DNA of 64,000 nt from a virus. Both the position numbers and the translations under genes were made by a program. Shown one piece after another: positions 9,450 to 54,284 of this stretch. Each line of letters starts with the position of its first letter. Within the stretch, counting starts at the first letter, position 1. The notes under the pieces were generated by a model, which did not search any database, was not told where the DNA came from, and saw only the letters and a program-made list of their open reading frames with translations. The stretch is taken from IMG/VR virus record IMGVR_UViG_3300044960_000172, positions 22,869 to 86,868 of that record. The stretch is one strand, 5' to 3'.

Positions 9450-10220
9450 TTATTCTAGTTCTAAATCTATACTAGAACCTGAAGTGGCAGTCTGTGTTAA
9501 TACTTTAAAATCTTCTCTTATTTTGTTTAATCTTTGATTCACATTGTTTCTAGATATATTTAAATCCTTAGCAATTTCTGATATAGTCTTTTTAGGTTTT
9601 CCGTGCAAACCAAACGTCGATTCTAGTATATATTTATCTTTATTATCTTCCAAGGCATCATAATACACATTATAGAGATACTGTAAATCTTTAGCTTTCT
9701 TAGCTGCGGGTAAAGAGGCTGAATCTTCTCCAGTAGCTTCTTCAAAAGAACCCTCATATCCAACTTGCTGCCTTTTACGAATTGTTTCTATTCTTTTAAT
9801 AGATATTCCTAGATTATCAGCTAATTCTTGATCAGATGGTTCTCTCCCAAGACTTTCTCTAAGTCTTTCTGTAGCTTCATTTAAGGCCTTAGATAACATA
9901 ATAGATTGCTCAGACATATGCAAGACATTCTGATGTTTTGACATATATCTCTGCAATCTTTGAAGATTAGTCCATGCAAAGGTAGTAAGACTACCCTTGG
10001 TTGGATCATACTTACCTAGAGACTCAAAAAGGACTGTTTTAGCCCGTCCCTGAATAAGAGGGTCATTTACATAACTAGCACCTAGATAAGTAGTAATGAA
10101 TGAATTAATAATAGGTGTAAATTCATTCATTAATTTAGTTGATAGCTGCTTGTTTTCTGGGTTTTCATACCACTGTTTCCAAGCTAATTTCAATCTGTCT
10201 TCTGTTTTTAACTCAGCCAT
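9450..10220 (-). CDS. RNA polymerase sigma-70 family factor
   Basis: 256 residues. Region 2 includes KYDPTKGSLTTFAWTNLQR (about 71-89), the 2.3-2.4 pattern 'yDPtkG.kFtTfA...I'. Region 3 has LGREPSDQELADNLGIS (about 124-140). Region 4 is a C-terminal helix-turn-helix (KTISEIAKDLNISRNNVNQRL, about residues 210-230). No region 1.1 is present and region 2 is short, as in alternative sigma factors. It should direct an RNA polymerase, host or phage-encoded, to a promoter class, probably late. It overlaps the hub gene by 8 bases, so it is co-transcribed with tail genes, an unusual position that would give feed-forward late expression (inference). Confidence 0.88.
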   Translation of the reverse strand: MAELKTEDRLKLAWKQWYENPENKQLSTKLMNEFTPIINSFITTYLGASYVNDPLIQGRAKTVLFESLGKYDPTKGSLTTFAWTNLQRLQRYMSKHQNVLHMSEQSIMLSKALNEATERLRESLGREPSDQELADNLGISIKRIETIRKRQQVGYEGSFEEATGEDSASLPAAKKAKDLQYLYNVYYDALEDNKDKYILESTFGLHGKPKKTISEIAKDLNISRNNVNQRLNKIREDFKVLTQTATSGSSIDLELE

Positions 10221-13267: not shown

Positions 13268-14029
13268 TTAGGTTCCTGCTAGCTTTCAATCTCTCTAGCC
13301 TTTCAATCAAATCTGCGTATTTATCCTTTATATTTAAAGCTTGGGTGCTTTGTGTTAATGCAAAATTTGCATAGCTATTATAAGATTGAATAACAATTTC
13401 CTTATCTATTTTACTAATTTTAGCTAGAGAAGATAGAACTGTATTTCTAGTTTTGAGAATATCTATCTTCCTATTTACATAGGAATATCTAGTTTTAAGA
13501 CAAAGAACAAGCTTTCCTGGGAGATATTTTAATGTTAAAGATTTGTTATCTATAATATCTAAAAGGGAATCTATTAAGAAGTAGATTCCCTTGTACCTTG
13601 AAAAAAATCCGGGGCAGTCGCCTCCTTTACTATAGCTTTGATATAATTATTGAATTCTTTCCACCTTGCAATAAACAGAGAATAAAGTACTTGACTTTTC
13701 AGATTATTACATATACTGGAAAAATCTATATTCAAATTATTTGTTTTCTTATAGAAAATCTTATGTTTAGTAGAAGATAAAGAATATACGGATAATAACA
13801 TTTGTAATTTCTTCTTTTCCTTAATAGCTTGGACATTATTAGTTATTTTGGAATTAGAAATTAATTCATCTATGTAATTCTCTATTAACAAATGTTCATT
13901 ACTAGATAACAAACAGAAAGATACTTTAAGATCATCTATTAAAGAATATTCCTTCTGGAAAGAAGAAGGATCAGTAAATATTGCGATCAGGAAATTTTCT
14001 ATTTCTTTTTGAGTGAAGATAGTTGACAT
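13260..14029 (-). CDS. Putative tail assembly chaperone, long form made by -1 ribosomal frameshift
   Basis: Expected product 256 residues: 143 from the upstream frame, then 113 in the -1 frame starting SRYKGIYFLID and ending RLKASRNLNA, stop TAG at 13260-13262. The extension has no ATG near its start, is Lys/Ile/Leu-rich and helical with a C-terminal coiled-coil look (YADLIERLERLKAS), and fills an otherwise gene-free 306-base gap. This argues that it is translated. The alternative is a homopolymer sequencing or assembly error in a single 256-residue gene; the in-register heptamer and tail-gene context favour programmed slippage. Confidence 0.6.
13574..14029 (-). CDS. Putative tail assembly chaperone, short (unshifted) form
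   Basis: 151 residues, mainly helical, Lys/Asn/Leu-rich. It ends eight codons after a run of seven T (complement 13601-13607) that is in register as T TTT TTT, the classic -1 slippery heptamer. The -1 frame continues open for 113 codons to 13260. Two overlapping ORFs joined by a -1 slip upstream of hub/tail genes is the hallmark of phage tail assembly chaperones (lambda gpG/gpGT and analogues), which are otherwise very divergent in sequence. Assignment rests on this architecture and position rather than sequence similarity. Confidence 0.65.
   Translation of the reverse strand: MSTIFTQKEIENFLIAIFTDPSSFQKEYSLIDDLKVSFCLLSSNEHLLIENYIDELISNSKITNNVQAIKEKKKLQMLLSVYSLSSTKHKIFYKKTNNLNIDFSSICNNLKSQVLYSLFIARWKEFNNYIKAIVKEATAPDFFQGTRESTS
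13601..13607 (-). promoter_or_regulatory. -1 frameshift slippery heptamer T TTT TTT
   Basis: On the minus strand the zero frame reads GAT TTT TTT CAA, so the heptamer T TTT TTT has the X XXY YYZ form. Both tRNA-Phe codons can re-pair after a -1 slip, moving decoding from the 151-residue frame into the 113-codon extension. I see no strong GC-rich stem directly downstream; the region is AT-rich, as is common in AT-rich phages. Confidence 0.6.
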
Positions 14030-14032
14030 AAT

Positions 14033-16600
14033 TTATCCTACTATTTTGAATTTATGCATATTACTTCGTTGAATCTGCACTGAATAATTAGTATTGCCGA
14101 TATTATTTATAGTTGTTGTTACATTTCCATACTTATCAGAAAACTTCGGATTAACCCAAATGATAGGTTGTACATTCCCATCAAAAGCTGCTTCCCCTGG
14201 GAATGGATAGGTAATAGACGCTGTACTATCAGTCGTTGACCAAAGACCGTCTTCTTTCCATTCACTAGTTCCCCAGTCCTTCCATCTAGGAGCTATTATC
14301 GTGTATCCAGAACTCTTATACTGCTCGGAATTTCTAAAAGTGATAGACATATCTTCTAGTAAAGTCTGATTATTTTCTAAAAGATCTTCAGCAGCGTTTT
14401 TAGCCGTCCTTGCATTTATTTCTAGATTTGATTTTTCACTATTAGCATTATTGGCTGTACTGGCATCATCACATTTTACTTTGCATTTAAAGTGACCAGA
14501 AGATCCTCCTATAATCCTACCTCTAACAAAAAGATCATGTCCTAAATAATTGCCAGAGGCAGAAAAGGTATTACATTGGATGTCGGATGTACTAGATACT
14601 GGATTACATTCTTCAGACCCGCTACCTGATCCGCTACCTGATCTACTACCCGATCCGCTGCCTGATCCACTACCAGATCCACTGTTAGAGCTATCACCAG
14701 ACCCGGACAGATCGCCAAAAATCTGGTGAACATATTCTTTTGATACATCTATTAAATTGTTACCTGCCCTAACGATATTACCAGAGTCGGCGTATTCCAA
14801 TATTCCTCTAGTTCCATTTAAAAAGACAGATTTAGATTGAATAGCAATACAAGCGTTACTTGATTTCAAATTTATACCTGGATAAAAAGCATCATCCCCT
14901 ATTCCTGGTGTAGAATCTCCTGGGTCCGCTTCACTGTCTGCCTCTAATACTATTCCACTATTATTTTTCTTGTGTGCTGCTCTAACATAGAAGTTGGCAC
15001 CAGAAATATTACGTATGGAACCCTCAGTAGTAGATACGTCTACACAATTCTTAGCTCTAAGAATTACGTCTCTGCCGGCATGGACAATGAAGTTTCTACC
15101 GCTTATGAATTCAATTCCTAAAGGTGCATCTATTTGAATTTTTCCTCTTGTCATAGTTATAGTAGCGCCATACCCGTCTCCTAATATTATAGAACCGTCT
15201 GCAGTCATGCTAATGTATGAATTATTTTTATAGACTCTTATTTTTTCATCACTACCTACCGTGACCTCTTCAGAAGAAGGTTCTTGTAAAAGCTCATAAT
15301 TCTGACTAAAACCAGAAAGAGAGGGTCCTGATGTATTTTGGCTCCGGTTATTATCGTTTACATAAAATCTTTTATTGTTACTGCTAGGATAGTTATTAGG
15401 TAAATAATCAAATAGAAAAGCATGTATATCATGAATTACAAATGGCTTAGGTACCGCAGTTTCTGCTTGAAGAATTTCATATCTAAAGCTGTTAGGATTG
15501 TAATTCTCTACACTTTCATCAAAACCTCCAACTGCTTTTTCTTCAACAAAACGAATATGTGGAGATTTTACGAGATGAATTCCTGTAGCAGATTTAATTC
15601 CTATTTGACCAAATTTACATCTATAAAAATCTGATAATCCTTTGACGTTCTTAGTATCACCATATTTCCATTCCTGATCTCCAACAGCAATCATTAAACG
15701 TCTGTCGCCATTGAATAGAGAACCACTGAATCTTTTATCATAATGAAGAGGCTTCCTTTTTCTAGCGCTGTCTATTTTCAGAACTTCCTGGAGTCTAGCC
15801 CGAGTATCCATTTTAGTTGGAAGCCCAGCTTGTTCAGCTACATTTCGGGCTACCCCTTCATAGATAAAGCTATAGTGAAAGTCAGAATGTGCTCTGAATT
15901 CAGAAACACCAGACCATAACTCTAGATGTTGACCAGATACTCTAGTTAAAGAGTCAATATAGAAGCACCAGACACCGCTAATGTCTGATGCTCTAATCAT
16001 TGCCATGAAAGGATCTAGATGAATAGCAGAACCAGATTCGGAAATTAGTGTATGTTCACCTACTTCAGTACTATCTTCTGGAGTCCTACCTGAATAGTCG
16101 GCTAGCGCTGTCCTTCTATTATTATTGAATTGTGGGGTTAATAGTTTATATGCATTTTGATGCAAAGGTCCTATTTCAGATTCTTGACCTATTATTTCAT
16201 TGATTGCCGTAGTGGGATTTATATTATACTTAGGCTCAGCGCCTATGATTATTCCATATCTACTAGAGGGATCGTCTATATACCAGACTTTTGTATTTAC
16301 AGAAATAGTACTGGCGTCATATACACCCAAAATATTTCCAGAACCTCTCATTAAGTAGAGACATTCTTTTACAGGCCCTCCGTTTTCAGTTGCTACATAG
16401 TAGACACGTAGCATTGGATTAGAGAAGATTACTAATCCTTTTCTTAATGTCGGAGGTTCGTATATTCTGTTAGCTTTAAGATGAGAGTCAAACGCTTTTG
16501 TATATTTATTATGTACTTCTTGCTTAAGAGAAGCATTTAGATAAGAAGTTGGAAGGGCATTAGCCTGCCCTTGTTTTTCTTCGTGAAAAGCTCTTTTCAT
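14033..16600 (-). CDS. Baseplate central spike protein (gp5/gp45-like beta-helix)
   Basis: 855 residues. The N-terminal half carries beta-barrel/OB-like and insertion segments. At about residues 450-610 there is a run of short strands (SYISMTADGSIILGDG, KIQIDAPLGIEF, NFIVHAGRDVILRAKN) typical of the triangular beta-helix of membrane-piercing spikes such as T4 gp5 C-terminal domain and P2 gpV. Then comes a flexible Ser-Gly linker (about 639-661) with nine or more SG units, and a separate C-terminal domain of about 190 residues. An AGGA site precedes the ATG. No lysozyme motif is seen. It lies between neck/tail genes and the tail chaperone. The linker joining a spike to another globular domain is odd. 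Confidence 0.65.
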   Translation of the reverse strand: MKRAFHEEKQGQANALPTSYLNASLKQEVHNKYTKAFDSHLKANRIYEPPTLRKGLVIFSNPMLRVYYVATENGGPVKECLYLMRGSGNILGVYDASTISVNTKVWYIDDPSSRYGIIIGAEPKYNINPTTAINEIIGQESEIGPLHQNAYKLLTPQFNNNRRTALADYSGRTPEDSTEVGEHTLISESGSAIHLDPFMAMIRASDISGVWCFYIDSLTRVSGQHLELWSGVSEFRAHSDFHYSFIYEGVARNVAEQAGLPTKMDTRARLQEVLKIDSARKRKPLHYDKRFSGSLFNGDRRLMIAVGDQEWKYGDTKNVKGLSDFYRCKFGQIGIKSATGIHLVKSPHIRFVEEKAVGGFDESVENYNPNSFRYEILQAETAVPKPFVIHDIHAFLFDYLPNNYPSSNNKRFYVNDNNRSQNTSGPSLSGFSQNYELLQEPSSEEVTVGSDEKIRVYKNNSYISMTADGSIILGDGYGATITMTRGKIQIDAPLGIEFISGRNFIVHAGRDVILRAKNCVDVSTTEGSIRNISGANFYVRAAHKKNNSGIVLEADSEADPGDSTPGIGDDAFYPGINLKSSNACIAIQSKSVFLNGTRGILEYADSGNIVRAGNNLIDVSKEYVHQIFGDLSGSGDSSNSGSGSGSGSGSGSRSGSGSGSGSEECNPVSSTSDIQCNTFSASGNYLGHDLFVRGRIIGGSSGHFKCKVKCDDASTANNANSEKSNLEINARTAKNAAEDLLENNQTLLEDMSITFRNSEQYKSSGYTIIAPRWKDWGTSEWKEDGLWSTTDSTASITYPFPGEAAFDGNVQPIIWVNPKFSDKYGNVTTTINNIGNTNYSVQIQRSNMHKFKIVG
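14616..14684 (-). repeat. 12-bp-type repeats encoding a Ser-Gly linker
   Basis: Degenerate tandem copies of GGATCAGGTAGC encode repeated Ser-Gly dipeptides (with one Arg) in the spike gene. Imperfect copies suggest an older expansion rather than an assembly artefact. Replication slippage would alter linker length in steps of two or four residues. Confidence 0.75.
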
Positions 16601-22770: not shown

Positions 22771-23154
22771 TTACAAGTATCTAGTCTTGTCTAAAGTCAA
22801 ACCATCAAACTCCACATATCTGCTAGAGAATACATTCTTACCAGAGAATCTATCACCAGCAACGGAATATGGAGTTCCAAGAGAATTAATATTAGAGTTG
22901 GCTACATTCTTTGCTACTTCACTTAAAGTAGTCAAAGCAGCAGTAGCACTTTTCAATAAATTCTCTTTCAATTTATTAGATTGATCTTCATTAATCAAGT
23001 TCGCTTCTCGCAAATCATTAATAATTTGATCTGCTAAAGACGAAGCATGCTCTTTATATTGAGCTTCCTTCGTATAATAATCACCTACTCTTTTAGTAAG
23101 CTCATTGTAGATATTCATCAAAGCAATGAGCTTCTCATTATCTAACTGTTTCAT
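22771..23154 (-). CDS. Small helical head protein
   Basis: 127 residues, helical, Lys/Asn/Leu-rich, with YYTKEA near residue 22 of the recurring K-x-A type. GGAG precedes the ATG. Lies between scaffold and decoration genes; could be a head chaperone or inner head protein. Not recognised. Confidence 0.65.
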   Translation of the reverse strand: MKQLDNEKLIALMNIYNELTKRVGDYYTKEAQYKEHASSLADQIINDLREANLINEDQSNKLKENLLKSATAALTTLSEVAKNVANSNINSLGTPYSVAGDRFSGKNVFSSRYVEFDGLTLDKTRYL

Positions 23155-33704: not shown

Positions 33705-35555
33705 TCAACTTTGCAGAATCTTTTTAGGCCACTCCGTGGCAAATGCTTTCCCGGTAACGAAAGGAGGTACATAAGAAGTAGAGAAAATCTCACTCTTATG
33801 TCCCTCACTAACAGCTTTTATTAAGCTTCTCTTCTGTCCAAAGGTACCACCTAAAAATCGTACTAACCAATCTGGATCATAATCAATAACTTTAGCAGCC
33901 GGAACCATGTAAGGTTCAAATGGCGGAGGATCGTCATGTACTAAAACATTGTCAATATTAAATTGTTTTAATATTTTCACCATAGATGGTGCAATAGCTG
34001 TTCCGATAGTATAATGTAAAACTGGCAATTCTAGATATTTTCCTGCAGCTTTATCTACTGATATCCATTTACTACCTTCCCGTGGTGTCCACTTAGATTC
34101 TAACCACGTGTAAGATACCACATCTCCAGGAATGTAATTCCCTATGGGTTGAGTTAATTTTACATGATCTATTAATCCAGAAACTAATATTTCAAAGTTT
34201 CTTCTTATTATATTAAAACCTGTTTGCTTATAAATATCTCTTAATAATTCTACATATTTCCTTCTACCTTCTCCAATGCCTTTATGCTGTACTAACTTAG
34301 AAATATTTGGAATTCCAGAACTAATAGGATCACCAGCTTCTACAAAGTCACCAATTTTTACATTTACTTCTTCTTGCGGAGGTACGTAATACTGTTCATT
34401 ATCAATGGTAACAATCTTACCACCAGCAGAAGCATCCGTAATGTTTTTAACAGTACCTGCATTGTCGGTATGTACAGCTCCCCTATATTGTTTGGGTACT
34501 TGCAAAGCTAGAATCAAAGAACCAATGTCTATCTTAGTCTTAGAAGTACCACCAGAATGTTTAGCCCCAATAACCATTTGTGTTACAGGTTCACCTAGAG
34601 ATTGAGAAGCAATTATTCCAATCATATCCCCTGGGCTTAACATTCTACCGTTTTCCATTAATCCAACATCTTTAGCAGTTACTCCACCACCTGGTAGTCT
34701 TTTGGTTAAAACGCTTCTGACAAGAATCTGGTTAAAACCTTTATTTTTCAAATCAGCTAATATCTCTGGAGTTAATAAAGTATTTCGTTTATAGCCGCCT
34801 ACATCTGCGGCAAGAAAGCTACCAGCATTATCAGGATCTGAAGTATCTACTGGTAATCCAATAGGTAGTGGATCCTTACCTTTATAATCAACAGCAGTGA
34901 CTATAAGTCTATGAGCAGCATTAGTTAATTGTTTGCTTAGGTACCCAGCATCTGCTGTTCCAAGATTCGTAGTCACGAATCCTTTTCTGGCGCCGAAAGT
35001 TGCTAGCCAGTATTCGCTTGGTCTTAGACCCATTGAATAACCGCGTAATACTGGAACAGGAATAGGTCGATTCTTATGATCTACGTAGAGAATATCACCC
35101 GTTAGAAGTCTTCTAATATCTACAGGTTTACCTCTAGTACCAGAAGAAGACTGACCGTAAAGAGCCCCACCTCTCTGTTTCAATATCTCTTTGGTTTTTT
35201 CCAAGAAGAGATCATCATATTTAGATACTATATCTATTATTTTACTAGACTTTTTATCCCAGTCTGTAGTGGAATCGGAAATTATTTCTCTAACTTTAGA
35301 ATATAAATCTTTTCTTAGATTATCTAATTCGTATGTAGGAGCTAATTCCTCCCAAGAAAAAGAAGACTTTGGGTGCCGATATGCAAAATCGGCACCCAAG
35401 TTCCCTAACTTCAAAGAAATCTCTGGAAATTTATCTGGATACTTCTGAGCTACTTTAGACAAAAGAGCCCTTATCTCTTTTACGTCTAAAGTACCAGATA
35501 CTTTTATATCCTCTGGTAATATTGCATTTATTAAAACAGCACCTGCTGTAGTCAT
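33705..35555 (-). CDS. RNA polymerase beta' subunit, C-terminal part
   Basis: 616 residues. Begins TTAGAVLINAILP, matching bacterial beta' just after the active-site domain (TTVGRAxxxxIxP). The bridge helix is clear at about 175-220 (GLRPSEYWLATFGARKG...TADAGYLSKQL). The trigger-loop region lies at about 310-335 (GIIASQSLGEPVTQM, then AKHSGG): the catalytic His is kept but the Arg of the bacterial TMRTFH is absent. It pairs with the beta-beta' N-terminal fusion encoded just upstream to rebuild a full catalytic core. Shorter than bacterial beta' C-terminal parts, lacking long insertions. No alpha or omega gene is seen. Confidence 0.93.
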   Translation of the reverse strand: MTTAGAVLINAILPEDIKVSGTLDVKEIRALLSKVAQKYPDKFPEISLKLGNLGADFAYRHPKSSFSWEELAPTYELDNLRKDLYSKVREIISDSTTDWDKKSSKIIDIVSKYDDLFLEKTKEILKQRGGALYGQSSSGTRGKPVDIRRLLTGDILYVDHKNRPIPVPVLRGYSMGLRPSEYWLATFGARKGFVTTNLGTADAGYLSKQLTNAAHRLIVTAVDYKGKDPLPIGLPVDTSDPDNAGSFLAADVGGYKRNTLLTPEILADLKNKGFNQILVRSVLTKRLPGGGVTAKDVGLMENGRMLSPGDMIGIIASQSLGEPVTQMVIGAKHSGGTSKTKIDIGSLILALQVPKQYRGAVHTDNAGTVKNITDASAGGKIVTIDNEQYYVPPQEEVNVKIGDFVEAGDPISSGIPNISKLVQHKGIGEGRRKYVELLRDIYKQTGFNIIRRNFEILVSGLIDHVKLTQPIGNYIPGDVVSYTWLESKWTPREGSKWISVDKAAGKYLELPVLHYTIGTAIAPSMVKILKQFNIDNVLVHDDPPPFEPYMVPAAKVIDYDPDWLVRFLGGTFGQKRSLIKAVSEGHKSEIFSTSYVPPFVTGKAFATEWPKKILQS

Positions 35556-35562
35556 TAATTAA

Positions 35563-36156
35563 TTAGAGGTTCTCGTTCTCGCCTCTAGAAGTACCAGCCT
35601 TATTAGTTAAAGCATCTCTAATATCTTCTAGTACCCTTAACATTGAATCTGCAGAATTAGCGAAACCTTTTTCTACAGCATCAATCACTAAGGTTTTGAA
35701 CTCTTCGGGTTTCATTTCCATTAGAGTACTGGTAGAAGTACCGGTACCTTGCTCCTCACCGACTTCAGAGCCAGGAGCGCCAGAATTATCAGTGGACTCA
35801 GGAGCACCGCCGGGCGGAGAAGCTAATAACTGCATCAATTCCGGAGGAAGCCCACCGCCCATCGGAGGAGGAGCGCCTCCACCAGGAGGAGCCCCGCCAC
35901 CCATCATTGATGGATCCATAGGCATACCTCCAGGCGGAGGAGCCATACCCATCATGGCAGGATCCATTGGAGTAGCACCACCACCGGGAGGAGCTGCCAT
36001 ACCCATCATGGCAGGATCCATAGGCATACCTCCAGGAGGAGCACCAGGAGGAGCACCGCCACCAGGAGGAACAAAGGCGTTCTTTTCGGAAGCTAATTTA
36101 GCTAAAGCCTTCATGAAAGCATTAGGATCTAATTGAAATAAATGAGAACCTTTCAT
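35563..36156 (-). CDS. Pro/Gly/Met-rich repeat protein between the two RNA polymerase genes
   Basis: 197 residues. Starts with K-x-A motifs (LAKLA, SEKNA, about residues 18-28), then about 90 residues of low-complexity repeats of the form PPGGMPMDPAMMGMA, then a charged helical C-terminal domain (TLMEMKPEEFKTLVIDAVEKG). AGGAG precedes its ATG, so it is an independent gene and not a spliced insert of beta'. The C-terminus of the portal has a similar Pro/Gly/Gln/Met-rich tail. Function unknown; a virion or polymerase-associated linker is possible. Confidence 0.7.
   Translation of the reverse strand: MKGSHLFQLDPNAFMKALAKLASEKNAFVPPGGGAPPGAPPGGMPMDPAMMGMAAPPGGGATPMDPAMMGMAPPPGGMPMDPSMMGGGAPPGGGAPPPMGGGLPPELMQLLASPPGGAPESTDNSGAPGSEVGEEQGTGTSTSTLMEMKPEEFKTLVIDAVEKGFANSADSMLRVLEDIRDALTNKAGTSRGENENL
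35895..36036 (-). repeat. Tandem repeats encoding PPGG-M-D-P-A-M-M units
   Basis: At least three related copies of a unit containing CCCATCATGGCAGGATCCAT and GGCGGAGGAGC-type segments encode Met/Pro/Gly-rich repeats. Copies are imperfect. Repeat number could vary between related phages. Confidence 0.75.
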
Positions 36157-36179
36157 TCAAACTCTCCTAATAAAAAAGA

Positions 36180-39100
36180 CTAACCAATTTCTACTGGCGT
36201 ATTTATTGTAATTTCACCTCTATTATATGCTTTAAGTAGGTCGCCAATAGATTTAAACCTTACAGGTTTTTTAGTTTTATCTTCGTAAGCTGTTGCCAGC
36301 CATAAACCTAAAGCATACTCTCTAATCGGAGGATATAACAGTCCAAAATTAGCAGAAGAGAATAAATTCTTTGATGGTAGCATTTTCATCTTAGCTTCTT
36401 TTTGAGCTTCATCAAGTATGGGAAGATGTACTTGAACAGCATCACCATCAAAGTCTGCTCCAAAAGCTGACGTTATTTGAGGATTGAATTCTACTACTTT
36501 ATTCTTTGTAAGAACTGGCTTAAATGCCATTACACCATATCTATGCAGTACTGGCGCTCTATTTACTATAACTACCCTGTTATTTATCTCTTCTAGTAAC
36601 GCATCTACTGCATATTTAGATTTATCATTATATGCTTTTATTGCATCTACTAGAGAAAGTCCGCGTTTAGTCAGATTTCTTATTATTACTGGCCTGAATA
36701 AAGTCCAGGCCATTTCTATGGGAATACCTACATGATCTATATCCAAGGCAGGATTTGGAATGATTACAGCTCTACCTACCAAGTCAGTAGTTATACCAAT
36801 AAGCTTACGCATTACATAGCTTGTTTTAGACCTGGTACCTACTATCTGCTGTAATAAACCCCTTAACCCCTGCTGCTTATGTTTAACTTGAATAGGATCA
36901 CCTATTCCTGCTACAGCCTTCATGCCGTTGTAGACAGCAAGTCTAGCTTCTGATGGATTTTCCATGAATTTCTTCTGAGAATTTAATATTTCATTAGCTT
37001 CATACAAATCTTGATACAAAGCATTAACATCAGCTACCGTTATTACTTTATTAGTTAAGGAGACTGGACGAAAGATTGGTGGAATAATAGGCATTCTCGT
37101 CCAGAACCATTCTTCTGGCTTTTGATTAGTTTGCTTTATAGCCCGTAGATATCTAATCTTCTTTATCAAAGCACTTTTTTTGCTAGCAGGAGCTACTTTG
37201 TAATTGCGAATAGCTGTATCTAGTTCTTTATCAACATTAAATTCTGATAAGACTTCCTTAAGGGCTTCTGGCCCTAATTTATTTGAACCTTCAAGAGTTT
37301 TCTTTCCTATTAGAATGTCAATGTAATCTTTCTCTGTTAAATCCAATAATGTACGAATTACATCTTCCATTACTGGATTTGGAAATGGTTCAGATAATTC
37401 AAAATAGCTCCAATGCCTACCATCTAGACCTCCAGTAATAGTCGGATCAAATAAACCGCCTGTTATTGGCTTAACATCATCACGTAATACTTTAACAGTA
37501 TTTGGATTTCTAATTACCCTATCTGCAGTCAGGTTAGCGATATCAGAGTTTGTAAGGGCGAAAAGATTCAAAGTGTCGTTGTTACTTTCTATATTTATAC
37601 CTGCAGCTTTTAATAGGTTTACAAATTTATCATAAACCAATGTTGATGTATTGACTGTGGGAGTAGCACCACGCATGAAATCTAGCCAAAATCTGTCATT
37701 TCTTTGTCCTCTAACAAACTTGGCATCTCTAATAACATTGAAAGCATTGTGACCTAAGATACCCATCAATTCCAAGAAACCTATATATTTTGCCCCTGTC
37801 TTACCTCCTCTAGCAGGCATGTCTTCTGCTGTATATTCAGCAGTCTCTCTTTCTTGCAACTTAGATTCTGCCATGTGATGCAATTTCATCACATATTTAT
37901 ATCCAGTTAAAACATTAGGAATATATGTGCCAAATTTTGGGTCATAAACAGTATCTGTGGGGGAAACCCTATTGGCCTTCAACATATTATCAGCAAAAAC
38001 GTAATAGTCGCTCATGAAGGCTGGAACAAATACAGGTTTCTTATTTTTAGCGGCAATTTTACCTAGAACAGCCTCATAGATTTGCCCCATATTACCTCTA
38101 GTAGCTAGTCCTAGAGGATTAACTAGTAAATCAAAGGGTCTGCCTAGACTATCTCTAGGCATTTCACTATCAGGAATGATCCTAGCGATTACACCCTTGT
38201 CACCAAATCTACCGGTTAACTTGTCTCCTTCAATTGCTAAAGAATTAGACTTAATGTTGATATAAAGATTGTCTCTTCCTTTATGAGTATCTATTACTAC
38301 ACCAGGATTTTCATGATCCCAAATAATAGATGCATCAGAAAGTATCTTCTTTTTTGCTCCTATTCTACCCGGATCTGCAGATTTTACAGCTAAAATTAAT
38401 GGTTGTCCTTTAATAGCTTTTCTACCTGGTTTTAAGAATCCATTTTCATCATAGTTATTGTAAAATTCCTCTGAATACTTACCTGGAAACGCCGCTTTAT
38501 AAGCATCTTTTCCAGTGATTATGTTTGGAGCTATATCCAGAGTTTCTTGATACATATGTTCAGAGTTTAATCTTTTAGCAAAAGATTCAGATACCACGTA
38601 AGCATCTTCATAGTTGTAACCACGATAAGGTAAAAATGCTATGTAAGCATTTAATCCGAAAGCGGGATTGCCATTCTTATCGGAGAAATTAGAAGTCGCT
38701 AATAATTGGTTCTTGTATACTTCATCCCCTGTTTTAACTACTGGGGTGTTATGAATGAACGTCTTTCTATTGAAAGGGAAATTATTGTATAATTCGTATA
38801 CAGTTTTCTTATTAGATCTTTTGTCTCTGACAACTATTCTATTAGGACTTACAGATTCTACTATTCCATCTACATCACTTTTAACTACACCGTAATATTT
38901 ATATGCAGCTCTTTGGAAAGAGTTATCTTGATTAGGTAGCTTCCCCTGAACTAGAGGTTCTTCAGCATTAATTAATGGAAGGGCCTGCAAATGCATTTGC
39001 TGACCCATCATGATACGTTGGGGGAAGGTTGTTCCTTGTGCAGGTAGAAAATTAGTAATTGTATTGAAATATTGTTCCCCATAAGGTAGTTCGTAATCTA

Positions 39101-40583
39101 CTTCTTCTCTGTTGAAATATCTAATTCTGCCGTTCTTAGATCCCAATACATAATTATCTTTATTATCCATTTCACCAGGATAAACTACTACGGCATTAAT
39201 GAGATCTTCTGGAGAACGCCATACGAATTTACCGGACTTTACATCTTTAAATACTGTATAAAGTTTACCGTTCTCATCTCTCCTAGTAAGATATGCAAGT
39301 CTTAAATCTACGCCTACTCGCTTTAACTTACCTGTTACTGCTGGATCTATAAAACCCATGTGGGTCTGATGTACAGATCTAGCTTCCTCTGGTACGGCTT
39401 CTACTTGTTCAATACCACCGGCGCCTAACTTAGTAACTCTGTATAGTCTATCGAGGGTCTCAGTGGGATTAATTTCTTCCAAAATCTCGGCTAAGCCACT
39501 ACCGAGAAGTAAATCTGAGATGCCTGTCCAATAATAATTACTAGGGATAACGCTTAAATCGAAATTCTTTCTTACAGCTCTAGGAATGAACTTACGTAAT
39601 CCTTGATGTGCTCTGAATACATATTCTGGAATTAAATGTTCTACTCCTGCTATTTTCTGGAAGTGTAAAGCATCACGCTCATCAGCTTCTGCTTCTCCCT
39701 TCCATACTTTTAGCATTTTCTTAGTAGCTTCAAGCATTACGTCTGGAGTGACATGGGTAGCAGGAATACCAATAGTTAGCTGGGTAGCTGTTGGATCTAA
39801 CTTCATGCTCTCTAATAGTTTAGGAAGAGCTTGATTTATCTGTTCTGGAGATAATCTGTTCTTAAATAATTTAGCAATGTTAGCTTTAGCTCCGGCAGCG
39901 GCGTTAGAAGCATATAGTTTCTGACCCCAAGCACTTAGAATCTTTTCATCAGGGACGTTGAGTGCTTTTAGAACGGTAAATAGTGGAATATTTACATTAC
40001 CAAAGGACATGTAGAATATACCCTTTTCAGGGTCAAGGGTATAATGATGAGTCAATCCTTTGACAGTATTTACGAAAGTATCTGCATTACCATCACCACG
40101 GAGACGTATGAAGACGCCAGGCTTTAAACGTAGTTGATTGGCAATACTGTAAGCATTTCCATTGAAAATGAAGGATCCATGACTAGTAAGATAAGGTACT
40201 CTAGCTACTAACTGCTTTCTTCTAGCTATCTCTTTCCCAGTCTTGGCATCAATAAGAACATAATCGCCTACTAGTCTTCTAGTAAGAGAATTACCTTTAA
40301 TAATTGCATCTCTTTCGTCTTGAATAGAAAACTTATCAGGGTCAGCATATTTAAGATTCTCTAATTTAAGAACATAATTACCATAAGCGTGTGCTGGAGC
40401 AGAAGATAATGTTTTAAGTACATTATCAAAGATTTTATGTCTGATTGCTTGAATGTCATCTACTGCTATAGAATTCTTGGGAATGTCAGTAATAGTAGGT
40501 AACGTTGGAGATGTATCTACAGACTTAAAGGTATCAGGATTCAATTCTTCAAGTTCTTGAACAGGCCTAGCTAATGTCTGCAT
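36180..40583 (-). CDS. RNA polymerase beta subunit fused to beta' N-terminal part
   Basis: 1467 residues. The beta part (1 to about 1000) shows EEPLVQGKLPNQDNSFQRA and GDKLTGRFGDKGV (about 786-798) followed by MPRDSLGRPFDLLVNPLG, matching the bacterial beta active-site-proximal regions. Beta' begins near LFALTNSDIANLTAD (about 1005) and continues with KPITGGLFDP, IPPIFRPV (about 1163), VGRAVIIPNP, NRAPVLHRYG and FGADFDGD, whose three Asp (1377, 1379, 1381) bind the catalytic Mg. The beta' zinc-binding segment between GLFDP and the 'GHIEL' equivalent is missing. The polypeptide stops just after the active site; the rest of beta' is encoded 625 bases downstream. This fusion-plus-split differs from the phiKZ pattern, in which both large subunits are split. 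Confidence 0.95.
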   Translation of the reverse strand: MQTLARPVQELEELNPDTFKSVDTSPTLPTITDIPKNSIAVDDIQAIRHKIFDNVLKTLSSAPAHAYGNYVLKLENLKYADPDKFSIQDERDAIIKGNSLTRRLVGDYVLIDAKTGKEIARRKQLVARVPYLTSHGSFIFNGNAYSIANQLRLKPGVFIRLRGDGNADTFVNTVKGLTHHYTLDPEKGIFYMSFGNVNIPLFTVLKALNVPDEKILSAWGQKLYASNAAAGAKANIAKLFKNRLSPEQINQALPKLLESMKLDPTATQLTIGIPATHVTPDVMLEATKKMLKVWKGEAEADERDALHFQKIAGVEHLIPEYVFRAHQGLRKFIPRAVRKNFDLSVIPSNYYWTGISDLLLGSGLAEILEEINPTETLDRLYRVTKLGAGGIEQVEAVPEEARSVHQTHMGFIDPAVTGKLKRVGVDLRLAYLTRRDENGKLYTVFKDVKSGKFVWRSPEDLINAVVVYPGEMDNKDNYVLGSKNGRIRYFNREEVDYELPYGEQYFNTITNFLPAQGTTFPQRIMMGQQMHLQALPLINAEEPLVQGKLPNQDNSFQRAAYKYYGVVKSDVDGIVESVSPNRIVVRDKRSNKKTVYELYNNFPFNRKTFIHNTPVVKTGDEVYKNQLLATSNFSDKNGNPAFGLNAYIAFLPYRGYNYEDAYVVSESFAKRLNSEHMYQETLDIAPNIITGKDAYKAAFPGKYSEEFYNNYDENGFLKPGRKAIKGQPLILAVKSADPGRIGAKKKILSDASIIWDHENPGVVIDTHKGRDNLYINIKSNSLAIEGDKLTGRFGDKGVIARIIPDSEMPRDSLGRPFDLLVNPLGLATRGNMGQIYEAVLGKIAAKNKKPVFVPAFMSDYYVFADNMLKANRVSPTDTVYDPKFGTYIPNVLTGYKYVMKLHHMAESKLQERETAEYTAEDMPARGGKTGAKYIGFLELMGILGHNAFNVIRDAKFVRGQRNDRFWLDFMRGATPTVNTSTLVYDKFVNLLKAAGINIESNNDTLNLFALTNSDIANLTADRVIRNPNTVKVLRDDVKPITGGLFDPTITGGLDGRHWSYFELSEPFPNPVMEDVIRTLLDLTEKDYIDILIGKKTLEGSNKLGPEALKEVLSEFNVDKELDTAIRNYKVAPASKKSALIKKIRYLRAIKQTNQKPEEWFWTRMPIIPPIFRPVSLTNKVITVADVNALYQDLYEANEILNSQKKFMENPSEARLAVYNGMKAVAGIGDPIQVKHKQQGLRGLLQQIVGTRSKTSYVMRKLIGITTDLVGRAVIIPNPALDIDHVGIPIEMAWTLFRPVIIRNLTKRGLSLVDAIKAYNDKSKYAVDALLEEINNRVVIVNRAPVLHRYGVMAFKPVLTKNKVVEFNPQITSAFGADFDGDAVQVHLPILDEAQKEAKMKMLPSKNLFSSANFGLLYPPIREYALGLWLATAYEDKTKKPVRFKSIGDLLKAYNRGEITINTPVEIG

Positions 40584-42312: not shown

Positions 42313-42822
42313 TTACTCCGTAATTACCGTATTGTAATCTATTCCATTTAGAAAAATATCATCTACGTTAGCAGAATTCGATGCTCTTAATTCGTATATT
42401 TTTCTCATGAAAGCTTTGCCAGAAGGTCCTAGCAAATTACTTTCAAACAAAGGTCTAGGACTAGCAGAAGGAAAGATTCTACTAGGACCGTAATTAGCCA
42501 TAGAAAGTTTAACTGGTCTACTATCTTCTAGTTTCTGCTGTAAAATCTTGGGATTGGAAATATCCCCTTTCTTATTAGCTTCTTTAACACATTCCATAGC
42601 GTCTTCTAACATCTTCTTAGCTTCTCGCCGATCAATAGCTGAATGAATACCGTAGGCTGCTATCACATTTTTGATAAAATCACTGATAAATACATATTTA
42701 GTAGCATTCTCTACGCTTTCCCTAGAACTACCAGCTTTAGATGTATCTAGGATAGCAATAACACCATCAGCAGCCCAAAATTCATAATTTCTAAATTTGT
42801 AGCGCTTTCCCGATTTCGTCAT
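42313..42822 (-). CDS. Hypothetical head-region protein
   Basis: 169 residues, basic N-terminus (MTKSGKRYKFRNYEF), mixed alpha/beta, no membrane segment or enzyme motif. Its start overlaps the ligase gene end by 32 bases, implying translational coupling. Not recognised. Confidence 0.6.
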   Translation of the reverse strand: MTKSGKRYKFRNYEFWAADGVIAILDTSKAGSSRESVENATKYVFISDFIKNVIAAYGIHSAIDRREAKKMLEDAMECVKEANKKGDISNPKILQQKLEDSRPVKLSMANYGPSRIFPSASPRPLFESNLLGPSGKAFMRKIYELRASNSANVDDIFLNGIDYNTVITE

Positions 42823-45085
42823 AAGTCTTATCTCCAGTATTTAATAATACGTTCTTAACAGATCCAGTAAAACCTTTTAATAATCCAGTAAGGCGACCTG
42901 TTCTTTGTAGATCTTCTTTAACATCCCTGGGTAAACCTAGTATAGGTACGGCTAAATCACCTAATAGCCTACCGAACAATGATCCTAATTCCATATTAGC
43001 AGATACTTTAGCAACATCAACAGGAGTTACCCAATCAGAACCTCTATACATAGAAGCTGTTAATGGCACAGTTACTAACAGAGTTTTCTCCCAGGGAGAT
43101 AAATCAGTATCTAATACTGTCTTACCCCATTCAGATACATCAAATTTAGCAGCTAATTTAACAGAAGCTTCTTTTATGAATTCAGGATTTATATCATCTA
43201 TTATTTTCTTTCCTGTTAAATCTTCAGCAAGTACTCGAAGTTTCTTAGCATGATAATCAATAGCAGATTTAGTCAGTGCCTCTTGGATTGGAGAAGGAGT
43301 TAAAAGACCTTTTAATCCGTGTGTACTGAGATTTTGAATTCCGTGGATATAAAATGGTAAAGAAGCACCTAATAGAGAACCAGCTAACCAAAGCCTTTTT
43401 CTGAATTTGCTATCTGCAAAGAATCTAGGAAAAGCAAATTCCAAAGTTCTACCAGCTAGATCTCCTAATGCCATTCCGATAAGAGCATCTAAAGCCATAG
43501 CAGTTAATGGATTAGGTCCACCTAATATCTTCTGAATATTGTTATGGACTTTAACAGGTAATTCTAAAACAGGGATATCTAGATAAGAAGAAGCATCTCC
43601 TTTCTTAATAAAATTATCTACTTTCTTTAGAATGTCTATGGCTAATAACCATTTCTCATCTTCTTCTGGTAGAACAAAACTTGCCTGCTTTTCTTGAACT
43701 GTAGGATAGTCTTCGTGCAAAGCAATGAAAGAAGGGGCTCTCAAGGCGCCAGAAGGAAACTTCTCTTGATAAGTTACCCTAGCTCGTCTTCCTACTAGAG
43801 ATTCAACATTTTCCATCATGAATTTTCTGAATTCATCAGAAAATCCAGTTCCTACTGTACCTACTACAGGGCCGTCAGGGGTGTAGCTATATTCAAAAGC
43901 ACCAGCAGAATCTGAATATTTCCCTAGTCCTGGAATAATTCTTTTTATATATACATCTTCTTCAGGTCTTATTTTATATTTGTATGGATAACCATACCTT
44001 CTGTAGACAACTATTCCCTCTTTTGTAAGAGGATGTTGCCCAGATTCTATTTCCTGGAGTAATTTCAGGATGTCCTCTTTCTTATCTACATAAGGAATTA
44101 CTGTAAAAGTATCTTTAGGTAAATATTGTAAGATTTCTAGTAACATCTTACGTCTAGCGGGATAGTCAACTGTTTCTGGATCTAAATGATTTCCACCATA
44201 ATTTGTGATATCAAATAATCCTATCTTAAGTTTAAGACCGAGATCTCTTAATCTATCCCAAGCATTCTTTACAGAAGAATTTAATACTGCACTAAGTATT
44301 TGTGGTTCTACAACTACTTCTGAGCCGTCTGGTAAAGTCTTTACGGCATAAACTTCACCCCGCAGAATACTTCCTGCATACTTTAATGGAAGGTTCAGAG
44401 TAGGTTTAGTCTTGAATATCTTATCCGTATATTGGATAGGGTATCCTGTAACTCTGGAAATTCTATGCCCAAAGATTTCTAATCCTTTGTCGCCTAGTTG
44501 AACTAAACCAAGAGCACCGTCAATCTTAGGTTCTGCAACTAAATAGTCTTCTTTCTCTAATAGTTGTTGTAACTTCTTTTTGTCAATAACGGGGTATTTT
44601 ACCTTGGCATAAGGAAGTGGCTTATTTGGAGTGATATTAATTAATAGCCAAGCATCCTTACCGTATTTATCTGTATCAGGTTTTAGTAATATGAATTTAC
44701 GTGGATGTCTATCAGAAGCAATGGTGAAGTAAATTCTCTTTTTATCAGGATCTATGGCCGTAACGAGAGCATTACCAGAATAAGCTAGAGATACGTTACC
44801 TTTACCATAACCAGAAGGTATTTCTCCTACAAAGGTTCTGTAATCGTAGGAATGAAGAGGTTGCTGGATAGCTAATACTTTTTCCCCAGGCGCCGGTAAT
44901 TTTGCAGAAGGTATAGCCCAAGATAATAAACCAATATCAGAATTTCCTAATCTAAAGTCATAATGTTTGCCGGCGCGTTCAGCGTCATGTTCTTGTAATA
45001 CTAGATCGTAGAAGTTTCCTTCTTGTAATGCTTTAATATTTCCATAATTTGCTTTATCTGGGATACCAACAGCAAATGGAGGCAT
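42791..45085 (-). CDS. ATP-dependent DNA ligase with N-terminal LigD-type phosphoesterase domain and hydrophobic C-terminal region
   Basis: 764 residues in three parts. (1) About 25-150: LigD-like 3'-phosphoesterase with H33-D34, H41-Y-D43-F-R45, PGEKVLAIQQPLH78 and FVGEIPSGYGKG, matching 'KHDARR.HYDFRLE...DHPLDYADFEGVIPEGNYG'. (2) About 180-450: ligase with motif I EPKIDGA (adenylated Lys187), LRGEVYA, EGIVVY and YKIRP, then an OB fold starting near VGTVGTGFSDEF. (3) About 500-764: helical, with hydrophobic stretches (ALDALIGMALGDLAG, LAGSLLGASLPFYI) and K-x-A motifs. It could clean 3' ends and seal nicks. Location among virion genes and the C-terminal tail suggest it may be packaged or membrane-associated (inference). 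Confidence 0.88.
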   Translation of the reverse strand: MPPFAVGIPDKANYGNIKALQEGNFYDLVLQEHDAERAGKHYDFRLGNSDIGLLSWAIPSAKLPAPGEKVLAIQQPLHSYDYRTFVGEIPSGYGKGNVSLAYSGNALVTAIDPDKKRIYFTIASDRHPRKFILLKPDTDKYGKDAWLLINITPNKPLPYAKVKYPVIDKKKLQQLLEKEDYLVAEPKIDGALGLVQLGDKGLEIFGHRISRVTGYPIQYTDKIFKTKPTLNLPLKYAGSILRGEVYAVKTLPDGSEVVVEPQILSAVLNSSVKNAWDRLRDLGLKLKIGLFDITNYGGNHLDPETVDYPARRKMLLEILQYLPKDTFTVIPYVDKKEDILKLLQEIESGQHPLTKEGIVVYRRYGYPYKYKIRPEEDVYIKRIIPGLGKYSDSAGAFEYSYTPDGPVVGTVGTGFSDEFRKFMMENVESLVGRRARVTYQEKFPSGALRAPSFIALHEDYPTVQEKQASFVLPEEDEKWLLAIDILKKVDNFIKKGDASSYLDIPVLELPVKVHNNIQKILGGPNPLTAMALDALIGMALGDLAGRTLEFAFPRFFADSKFRKRLWLAGSLLGASLPFYIHGIQNLSTHGLKGLLTPSPIQEALTKSAIDYHAKKLRVLAEDLTGKKIIDDINPEFIKEASVKLAAKFDVSEWGKTVLDTDLSPWEKTLLVTVPLTASMYRGSDWVTPVDVAKVSANMELGSLFGRLLGDLAVPILGLPRDVKEDLQRTGRLTGLLKGFTGSVKNVLLNTGDKTYDEIGKALQI

Positions 45086-51614: not shown

Positions 51615-54284
51615 CTACATAGGAGGTTGTACAGAACCGGCAGCTGCTTGAGCCGCTTGTTGCTGTCCCATAATTACTCCTTGGCGGCTATCCGCAGCCC
51701 TCATATCATTCAATTTCTCTTTAACTACCATCCATAGCATTTCATTCTTAACCTTAAGCTGCCTCAACAAGGAATCCTTCTCAGGCTCGGGTCTACCTCT
51801 AATAGACAGAGCTACCTGTGTAGCTAGATTATCTAGCTCCATAGGATTAACATTTTGCATGGGACCTTGTGGTAAGCTAGCCAAGATTTGAGATACAGGA
51901 TCATAAGCCATTGAAGCGCCCTGTTGTGGGGGTGCACCACCTCCTCCACCAGGAGCGCCTCCTACGCCTCCTGGAGGAGCTTGTTGTTGCATTTGCTGCA
52001 TGTAAGCTCCAGAGGCCATGTCTTTACCTAGATTTAGTTTTTCTATTCTTTCTTGAGCTTTATTAGTCTCTTGAGCAGACAGGATCTGCTCTTCTAACTG
52101 TCTCCTGAGATCTTCTTCATAGTTCATACCCATAGAGCTAAACATTTCATCCTTACTTAGCTGACCACTCATAGCAAGTCTAGACTTAAGCATCTGAGTA
52201 TTAATGTCATCAACGTGAGTCGGAGAGGCTAGTCTAACTCTTACAGGTTCCCAATCTAATTCTGAAGAAATTCTATTTGATAACCAAGATAAGAAACCAT
52301 TAAGTGCTCCTACTAAATGATTCCAGTTAGAATTTAATACTCTCATAGCAAAAGGGGCCGAGCTTACTTGAATTGATCCTTTGTAGAATTCAATTGGAAT
52401 GCTCAGACTATTTAATAACTGATCTACTGCAAATTCAAACATTTCTCTTGGAGCAAGATTTCTACCATCTCCACCAATAGATTTATAATCAAGTGGATAT
52501 GGAGAAATATGCCACAAAGTAGGATCCCTTCTACGCATATCTAAAATAGAAGCTAATCTAGCAGAGAAACCGCCGAAGTTGATATCTCTAATAGGATCAC
52601 CACCTTCCATAGAAGATCTAGGCATAGGAGTAATAATTCTTAATGGTAGTACATAGTCTAAAGCAATAGCCTCATTCATTCTATGAAGCACTTGTACGTA
52701 CCATGCTTGTTGGATGCAAGAAAAGATTCTACTTAATCCCCAACCCTTGAGTCTTACTCCACTCAAAGATTCTTCTTTCCCATGATAAATAGTATCTCTG
52801 TTAAATTTTAAATCAGAATTAGTATCAACAGCGTCAAGCACTTCTCTAGGTACTGATCCAATAGTTCTATTAGTAGCTTTATTTCTTATAAATTCTTTAT
52901 ATTCCTGAGGAATTACCCATAGAATGTCGTAATTGCCAGTAAAGTCATCAAATTCAAATAATCTGATATCATAAATTTTCCACCTTTTAAGTATTAATTT
53001 ACTATTCTTATCTTTATATTCCTTGGTTTTAAACTCTACATGTTTTTCACAACTATCACATATTCCTTGGAATTTACCATTAGAATATTTAATTCTGTTA
53101 TTAAATTTACTAATAGATTTAGTGAAACTACATTCGGGACATCGTGCTATTCTATTTATAGATGGTAAAACAGAAACAAAGAAATTACCATAAGTTATGT
53201 AATCAAAAGCACAATATCTTAAGAATTCCTTAATTCTCAGATCATTGACAAGATAATCATAATATTTCTTTCTAAGAGAATTATCTGCGTTCTCTACTTC
53301 TATATCTGTAATGAAGAAACTGATAATTCTATCTATGGCAGAACGTAAAATTCCGCTCTTAATAACAATGTACTCACAATTGGCAACGAGAACGCCGTTA
53401 GCTACATATTTGTGTAAATCTGCAATAGTTAAACTGTATACCGGTCCAGTGTAGTGATAATGTAATACTTGTTTAACCCTTCTAAAGATATAACCGTCTT
53501 TGTAGACAACATCTTTAGAAAATGTAGTCCTAGGTTTAGGTACAAAAGGGTCGTTAAGAATCGGAAATAGGAGATCTCTCTTTATCTTTATTTCAAATAA
53601 TTCATCTACATAAGATACCATTCCAATAGAGTCTAAGAATCTATTTAATGAATAAACTACGGGAAAAGCATCTGATACAGGAATTCCATCTAATTTAAGA
53701 TAGTACCAATTAGAATCTTCTCTAGTTTTGTAGTTATCAACTAAAAAGCGTAGATAGTTATGAATCAAGTCGGTATTATTTATTCTTAACAATTCGTTAT
53801 GAAGAGTAATAGATTCTTTAGATAGCTTTATAAAAGACATTCCTTCTGAAGCATTAACTTCAGCAGAATTACTTTTCCGAGATGGAACTAAAATGTAATG
53901 ATCTGGTGTAACATCTACTGCTGGGATAAGTTGTACATCAGAGAAATTATCAAATATTACATAAACCTTGTGGTCTGCGGTTACATCTAAGTGGAAACCG
54001 CCATGTGGATATATTCTTACCATATCCCCAGAATATTCTCTGGAGATTATATTAGTAACTTCTAAATATTTACCGTTATCTGCAAGTACTTTATCTCCTA
54101 CTGAAAGTTGTGTAATAGGCTTTATATTAGAATCGCATTCTATCCAAGTATTAGGATGATGACACCACCGTAGAGCATTAGTCCAGTTTGACGGTTGGAA
54201 TAGGCTAGAATAATCCAAGAATGGATTTAGATGAGATAGTCTATTGGTTATAGGTTGACTTACATCAAATTCTTGGAATGCCAT
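51615..54284 (-). CDS. Portal protein interrupted by an intein
   Basis: 889 residues as encoded; about 627 after intein removal. The host protein (residues 1-40 and 303-889) looks like a portal: a helical N-terminal domain, a zinc-like pair (CPEC ... CDSC, about 367-400), YGNFFVSVLP, a stem/crown region with RLASPTHVDDINTQMLKSRLAMSG, and a C-terminal Pro/Gly/Gln/Met-rich tail. It forms the head-vertex ring through which DNA is packaged. The intein (41-302) begins Cys41 and ends Asn302, with Cys303 as the +1 residue. The tail resembles that of the 35563-36156 protein. Confidence 0.88.
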   Translation of the reverse strand: MAFQEFDVSQPITNRLSHLNPFLDYSSLFQPSNWTNALRWCHHPNTWIECDSNIKPITQLSVGDKVLADNGKYLEVTNIISREYSGDMVRIYPHGGFHLDVTADHKVYVIFDNFSDVQLIPAVDVTPDHYILVPSRKSNSAEVNASEGMSFIKLSKESITLHNELLRINNTDLIHNYLRFLVDNYKTREDSNWYYLKLDGIPVSDAFPVVYSLNRFLDSIGMVSYVDELFEIKIKRDLLFPILNDPFVPKPRTTFSKDVVYKDGYIFRRVKQVLHYHYTGPVYSLTIADLHKYVANGVLVANCEYIVIKSGILRSAIDRIISFFITDIEVENADNSLRKKYYDYLVNDLRIKEFLRYCAFDYITYGNFFVSVLPSINRIARCPECSFTKSISKFNNRIKYSNGKFQGICDSCEKHVEFKTKEYKDKNSKLILKRWKIYDIRLFEFDDFTGNYDILWVIPQEYKEFIRNKATNRTIGSVPREVLDAVDTNSDLKFNRDTIYHGKEESLSGVRLKGWGLSRIFSCIQQAWYVQVLHRMNEAIALDYVLPLRIITPMPRSSMEGGDPIRDINFGGFSARLASILDMRRRDPTLWHISPYPLDYKSIGGDGRNLAPREMFEFAVDQLLNSLSIPIEFYKGSIQVSSAPFAMRVLNSNWNHLVGALNGFLSWLSNRISSELDWEPVRVRLASPTHVDDINTQMLKSRLAMSGQLSKDEMFSSMGMNYEEDLRRQLEEQILSAQETNKAQERIEKLNLGKDMASGAYMQQMQQQAPPGGVGGAPGGGGGAPPQQGASMAYDPVSQILASLPQGPMQNVNPMELDNLATQVALSIRGRPEPEKDSLLRQLKVKNEMLWMVVKEKLNDMRAADSRQGVIMGQQQAAQAAAGSVQPPM
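53379..54164 (-). other. Intein (262 residues) inside the portal gene
   Basis: Residues 41-302 of the portal ORF. Block A: CHHPNTWIECDS...LSVGDKV with Cys1. Block B: LDVTADHKVYV with the TxxH motif. C-terminal blocks: VYSLTIADLHKYVANGVLVAN followed by Cys+1. The penultimate residue is Ala (A301) instead of the usual His, with terminal Asn302. The middle (about 141-270) has no LAGLIDADG or HNH motif that I can see, so a homing endonuclease is absent or decayed. Splicing would restore W40-C303. Confidence 0.88.

Follow-up and report, generated by a model that had tools for sequence, protein, structure and literature searches.

A phage RNA polymerase core encoded as a beta-beta' N-terminal fusion and a separate beta' C-terminal protein

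RNA polymerase (RNAP) has one of the most conserved core anatomies in biology, and the question addressed here is how that core is arranged, and how it came to be so, at a viral locus where its usual subunit boundaries do not hold. The sequence analysed, hereafter the window, is a 64,000-nt stretch of the IMG/VR record IMGVR_UViG_3300044960_000172 (record positions 22,869–86,868; coordinates below are those of the window itself), in which beta is joined to the first half of beta' in a single gene and the second half of beta' is encoded separately. It is likely, taking the proposal as a whole, that these two genes make up the entire catalytic core of a bacterial-type multisubunit RNAP that the phage encodes and that descends from an ancestral fusion through one later cut, dispenses with alpha, is guided by a sigma factor and, by analogy with Salmonella phage Arash, is packed in the virion. 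The kind of enzyme is known, while its subunit architecture is genuine, conserved and apparently undescribed.

Anatomy of the two proteins

The fusion gene (36180–40583, minus strand) encodes 1467 amino acids (aa) and, according to its open reading frame (ORF), Pfam domains and residue alignment with Escherichia coli beta+beta', comprises a complete beta followed by the N-terminal half of beta', ending just beyond the active-site double-psi barrel, past the GADFDGD motif. The gene for the C-terminal part of beta' (beta'C; 33705–35555, minus strand; 616 aa; ORF, Pfam Rpb1_5 and structural model) lies 624 bp downstream, and an ORF for a Pro/Gly/Ala/Met-rich protein of 197 aa (35563–36156, minus strand) stands between them. 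Both polymerase ORFs are exactly where a preliminary description, made from the sequence alone, had placed them; its account of beta fused with beta' through DFDGD, with bridge helix and trigger loop in a separate gene beyond the Pro/Gly/Met-rich one, was borne out by ORFs, Pfam and PDB comparisons, the gap alone having been given as 625 bp.

In the Pfam comparison which that description had proposed, beta domains preceded beta' domains in the fusion (Rpb2_3, 3.5e-5; Rpb2_6, 9e-52; Rpb1_2, 2e-25; Rpb1_1 short of its curated cut-off at 1e-6), and Rpb1_5 was found in the second protein (5e-29). Against PDB chains, residues ~108–958 of the fusion matched bacterial beta and residues ~1100–1466 matched beta', ending at a gamma-like end, and the beta'C ORF continued beta' from the residues next after the end of the fusion. 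The beta/beta' junction was placed by alignment and AlphaFold model at approximately residue 1000 (37570–37600, minus strand; ..AAGINIESNND/TLNLFALTNSD..). No linker is added there: in the alignment the C-terminal helix of beta passes straight into the N-terminal segment of beta', and where bacteria have the beta stop and beta' start the chain continues unbroken and is ~18 residues shorter than E. coli beta+beta'. A fragment model of fusion residues 340–1467 (mean predicted local distance difference test score, pLDDT, 78) was ordered across this junction and matched bacterial beta best, viral RNAPs matching more weakly.

Both ORFs are open and retain catalytic residues. The beta active-site lysines K788 and K796 (GDKLTGRFGDKGV; 38196–38222, minus strand) align with E. 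coli GDKMAGRHGNKGV, and motif alignment places the catalytic DFDGD of beta' at residues 1377–1381 (context GADFDGDA; 36441–36455, minus strand), with D1377, D1379 and D1381 aligned to the E. coli beta' active site and DxDGD present. Alignment and model put both remaining elements in the beta'C protein, namely the bridge helix (residues 179–214; 34914–35021, minus strand), predicted as one long helix, and the trigger loop (EPVTQMVIGAKHSGG, E. coli EPGTQLTMRTFHIGG; 34548–34592, minus strand by alignment). The beta'C model (pLDDT 85) was matched by Foldseek to Thermus (bacterial) beta' across its length, with a template-modelling score of 0.75 by query length. The clamp helices, which are the sigma-binding element in bacteria, are retained in the fusion (alignment with E. 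coli). With lysines, DxDGD, bridge helix and trigger loop all present, the pair would form a two-barrel (double-psi beta-barrel, DPBB) multisubunit RNAP of predicted activity, the first polypeptide contributing the two active-site barrels along with the clamp helices and the second the bridge helix, trigger loop and beta' C-terminus.

When both proteins are aligned jointly with E. coli beta+beta', the fusion ends at ..GEITINTPVEIG, which corresponds to E. coli ..ASLHARVKVR, and beta'C starts at MTTAGAVLINAILP, corresponding to E. coli TTVGRAILWMIVP, the same two ends that the preliminary description had given. The cut falls in a short linker just before the TT.G motif of beta' (TTAG), and the core loses there only the loop that joins both segments in bacteria. 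AR9 gp270 ends ~45 aa before the end of the fusion, and rpoC1-type proteins end ~20–25 aa beyond the phage cut, after TTPGR. Near the beta' C-terminus, beta'C residues ~495–540 (33930–34080) form a ~45-aa insertion, lacking in E. coli and present in the relative L064 and in Arash.

Conservation and phylogeny of the layout

Scanning of IMG/VR returned 294 fusion relatives, of which 80 were read; scans with single window proteins as queries gave no match, and it was alignment-based queries that found relatives. Loci were drawn with patterns built from fused proteins, so that their counts are not prevalences. A complete fusion ORF was present in 100 loci, with a separate same-strand beta'C 0.6–5.9 kb downstream in 87 of them (counting the window, its duplicate L001 and some near-identical contigs). 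Most loci with a complete fusion and no beta'C end too early to tell; in L066, L068–L070 and L042 none was seen in the available DNA, and L042, L066 and L069 have none within ~10 kb (the available downstream DNA reaching up to 10 kb in L066 and in L069). A first scan of genome contigs yielded no loci and a second yielded 25, among them phage-type loci in metagenome-assembled genomes (MAGs) of Planctomycetes, Lentisphaera and others; these may have been binned wrongly and have little bearing on hosts. One two-protein locus (L153) came from a GTDB MAG. In L171, a contig whose MAG bears the label Alphaproteobacteria, rpoC1 and rpoC2 are separate genes, and the contig is therefore probably plastid or cyanobacterial, not alphaproteobacterial. 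Four entries of the phage collection (OR844998, CAKLQH020000005, AFYI01000006 and AGRM01000005) hold an ordinary bacterial rpoB-rpoC, apparently host DNA.

The same pair, with the same break, is encoded by cultured or isolate-derived genomes: Salmonella phage Arash, with gp206 of 1525 aa and gp216 of 606 aa, and Vibrio phages D69, D148 and D181, at 31–33% and 24–27% identity to the window, where the proteins are annotated merely as beta and beta' or as hypothetical. These phages differ from the window in belonging to another subclade and having other intervening genes, and in D148 and D181 a homing endonuclease interrupts the fusion. Overall the layout is conserved over roughly 25–45% identity. 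The window fusion forms a long branch, sharing ~44% identity with its nearest kin, and belongs to a large subclade most examined members of which share an intervening gene of similar Pro/Gly/Ala/Met-rich composition. The preliminary description had called the layout unusual and had named its being common in described phages as grounds for dropping that view. With 87 loci in the sample and cultured Arash and Vibrio D69 it is not rare, and in deposited sequences it is common; searchable papers do not describe it as such, our literature search having covered neither preprints, subscription papers nor supplements. The nearest published case was a hydrothermal phage MAG with one RNAP gene given as 'beta and beta prime' (PMC10159854).

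A second form combines beta with beta'N and beta'C in a single ORF. Such single chains, ~2000–2960 aa when complete, were found at 20 IMG/VR loci, and a further, deep one in a Nitrospirae-labelled MAG (L166); they run across the cut position by a short linker (L091, ..VVINNQKTTLGRALVNRILP). Trees were built from 66 representatives, single chains included, after removal of near-identical contigs, and the full-chain trees were rooted with few, then ten bacterial-type references (E. coli, Acinetobacter, a firmicute, Armatimonadota, Dojkabacteria, Clostridia and one rpoC1/rpoC2-type contig). The two-protein form was one clade, with a support of 100 in the Shimodaira–Hasegawa-like approximate likelihood ratio test in two trees and of 100/100 under a mixture model with the ten references as root, in agreement with the earlier suggestion of a distinct phage polymerase lineage. 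Phage RNAPs were set apart from bacteria, the sole comparison there, at 100/99, and the single-chain L166 and L128 branched before the two-protein clade at 100/100. By these sequence trees, single-chain fusions are the closest kin of the two-protein form.

All aligned members of the lineage, window included, have a deletion in place of the N-terminal zinc ribbon of beta' (E. coli CLCGKYKR..CEKCG); the unrelated Carin-5 enzyme does not. Arash, its Vibrio counterparts and the single chains retain a second zinc site, the cysteines of which are lost in the window and most of its subclade. The trigger loop reads [IL]-x-x-K-H in 85/85 two-protein chains, as against bacterial QLTMRTFHIGG. The lysine is missing from 18 of the 19 single chains, most of which read MRTFH or a close variant, and KH occurs in one.

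The multimeric-RNAP-encoding Caudovirales (mReC) resemble the window in having a deep-branching phage RNAP found by bacterial beta/beta' models, in aquatic and sediment metagenomes (Weinheimer and Aylward 2020, PMC7481178). The main text of that paper treats beta and beta' as two subunits, mentions fusion for crAss phages only, states that crAss-like RNAP is not recognised by COG0085/COG0086 models, and gives a filter, NADxDGD, which the window (GADFDGD) fails and relatives such as L064 (NADFDGD) pass. A scan aimed at named mReC contigs returned none. Going by this main-text description, our lineage probably overlaps mReC, likely the known home of part of it. The crAss-like enzymes likewise join beta and beta', albeit in a single chain, whereas the window has beta'C as a separate gene. 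In cyanobacterial and plastid RpoC1 (gamma) and RpoC2, beta' is cut in the same region as here, but beta is separate, and alpha and the zinc ribbon are present. Natural rpoB-rpoC fusions are found in Helicobacter and Wolbachia, beta to beta' end to end; unlike in the window, beta' is complete within the fusion, and the enzyme is cellular, with alpha and omega.

Sigma, alpha and the virion

A sigma-70-family factor of 256 aa with regions 3 and 4 is encoded at 9450–10220 on the minus strand (phrog_351, 1.4e-15; Pfam Sigma70_r3/r4) and is probably the promoter-recognition subunit. Such a factor is present in 19/22 related records, the window phage among them; Arash and D69 have sigma genes, and the Arash-type set of fusion, beta'C and sigma is complete in the window. 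Neither an alpha-type (PF01193) nor an omega (PF01192) match was obtained in the 22 whole records, the cellular controls matching in both cases. A Gp23-type capsid (PF07068) was found in none of the 22 records, the control set likewise being without a match.

In the passages of the Arash paper relevant to the virion (PMC10585845), gp206, with the most spectra of all proteins, gp216 and the sigma factor gp10 are reported as detected in virions; the same passages call gp206 and gp216 beta and beta' and carry no remark on fusion.

Origin and working of the enzyme

The best-supported and simplest history, as read from the trees, would be one beta-beta' fusion followed by one cut inside beta': the two-protein clade is nested among single-chain forms, which places the fusion first and the new cut later. 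We propose that an ancestral phage RNAP joined beta to beta' in one chain, whereby alpha would no longer be needed as an assembly scaffold, and that one descendant cut this chain anew within the linker that precedes the TT.G motif, so that the pieces would now assemble non-covalently. The phage sigma would direct the enzyme to phage promoters via the retained clamp helices and, on the Arash analogy, enzyme and sigma would travel in the virion and, once injected, begin early transcription. The product is most likely a sigma-dependent, alpha-free and probably virion-packaged phage RNAP. Arash can be grown on a laboratory strain of Salmonella and its virions contain the RNAP proteins, which makes this model testable now. 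A lineage with fused beta and beta', a later re-cut, no recognisable alpha, omega or beta' zinc ribbon, and sigma retained reveals which boundaries and parts of RNAP are dispensable, and its single-chain members would be bacterial-like, sigma-guided polymerases of one polypeptide, of interest for biochemistry and as tools.

Several points weigh against this proposal. Anatomy, conservation of the layout, tree, sigma gene and the lack of alpha and omega matches come from sequence; catalysis, alpha-free assembly, use of sigma and packaging in the window phage are what we infer from them, activity being predicted ahead of a transcription assay. Pfam would miss diverged or structural alpha analogues, and, as the window record comprises a fragment of 86.9 kb, a second RNAP or an alpha-like gene may lie beyond it. 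Packaging is carried over from Arash, which is 27–33% identical and of another subclade, and in the passages cited above its authors allow that virion RNAP proteins could be carry-over. Finally, the branching order of L091, the main single-chain group and the two-protein clade was not settled by the trees, and a clade uniting the jumbo-phage enzymes of phiKZ/AR9 type with the two-protein form was not rejected (approximately unbiased, AU, test, p = 0.18).

It is unlikely that the phage core is instead a hybrid which borrows host alpha, host sigma or both. The bacterial-like character of the enzyme and the lack of alpha and omega matches would suit such a hybrid; however, a phage sigma is nearly always present, the fusion offers an alternative means of holding beta and beta' together, and phiKZ/AR9 enzymes function without alpha (PMC7598289).

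Also unlikely is a direct origin of the two-protein layout, with beta' cut as in cyanobacteria, beta fused to its N-terminal part and single chains arising later by re-fusion. A cut in the same region is known from cyanobacteria, plastids and phiKZ/AR9, and the unsettled position of L091 and the other single-chain groups leaves some room for it. But since L166 and L128 lie outside with full support, several independent re-fusions at one linker would be needed, and the ~20–25 residues between the phage and rpoC1/rpoC2 cuts also speak against it.

Rather improbable, in turn, is that the beta' cuts of phiKZ/AR9 and of the window lineage are one event, inherited from a phage RNAP whose beta' had been cut before. 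The phiKZ/AR9 enzymes lack alpha and omega and have a KH trigger loop. Points for a shared cut are its place in the same linker region, albeit at another residue, after the active-site barrel, the pattern L-S-A/T-K-H common to AR9, Machias, Goslar, PA7 and Noxifer, and the AU result; tree and AU test together neither supported nor rejected shared ancestry. Unlike the window, as the preliminary description had rightly noted, they also split beta and have no beta-beta' fusion; they have no recognisable sigma and are far more diverged. A review compares their beta' cut with that of cyanobacteria and names a cyanobacterial origin as one possibility (PMC7598289). Against a single event, the best beta'C tree sets the jumbo enzymes outside the joint single-chain and two-protein clade (95/99), branches are long, AR9 gp270 ends earlier, and KH trigger loops also occur in the uncut beta' of Va2 and 1.031.O. 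Marginally more improbable still is a version in which the beta-beta' fusion was followed by the re-cut and a rewritten trigger loop (RTFH to xxKH) and the phiKZ/AR9 enzymes stem from this same cut, which would give the jumbo beta' split a phage, not a cyanobacterial, origin.

Although relatives do carry homing endonucleases and probable inteins in their RNAP genes, an assembly error, frameshift or split-intein artefact concealing an intact beta' is rejected as next to impossible, because dozens of other loci share the break, an unrelated gene lies in between, and neither protein has a Hint domain.

Fusion ORFs of 1760–2383 aa were seen in L045, L048–L051, L058–L060, L077, L081, L082 and L153; they carry 300–900 extra aa without added RNAP sequence, probably inteins. 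In L004 (Vibrio D181; 13429–14377) and L124 the fusion gene is broken at the same profile position (~515), and the insert in D181 (according to annotation also in D148) contains a homing endonuclease, perhaps within a self-splicing intron. Elsewhere in the window, 51615–54284 encodes an 889-aa protein with intein/Hint splicing domains, and 42791–45085, a few genes upstream of the fusion, a DNA ligase with a LigD_N phosphoesterase domain, homologues of which lie close to the RNAP genes in several relatives. A superfamily-2 helicase (SNF2 type) follows beta'C in Arash (L002, 26055–27473), and one is also located after beta'C, immediately or within a few genes, in AR9, Noxifer, Goslar and Machias (L144, L146, L148 and L149).

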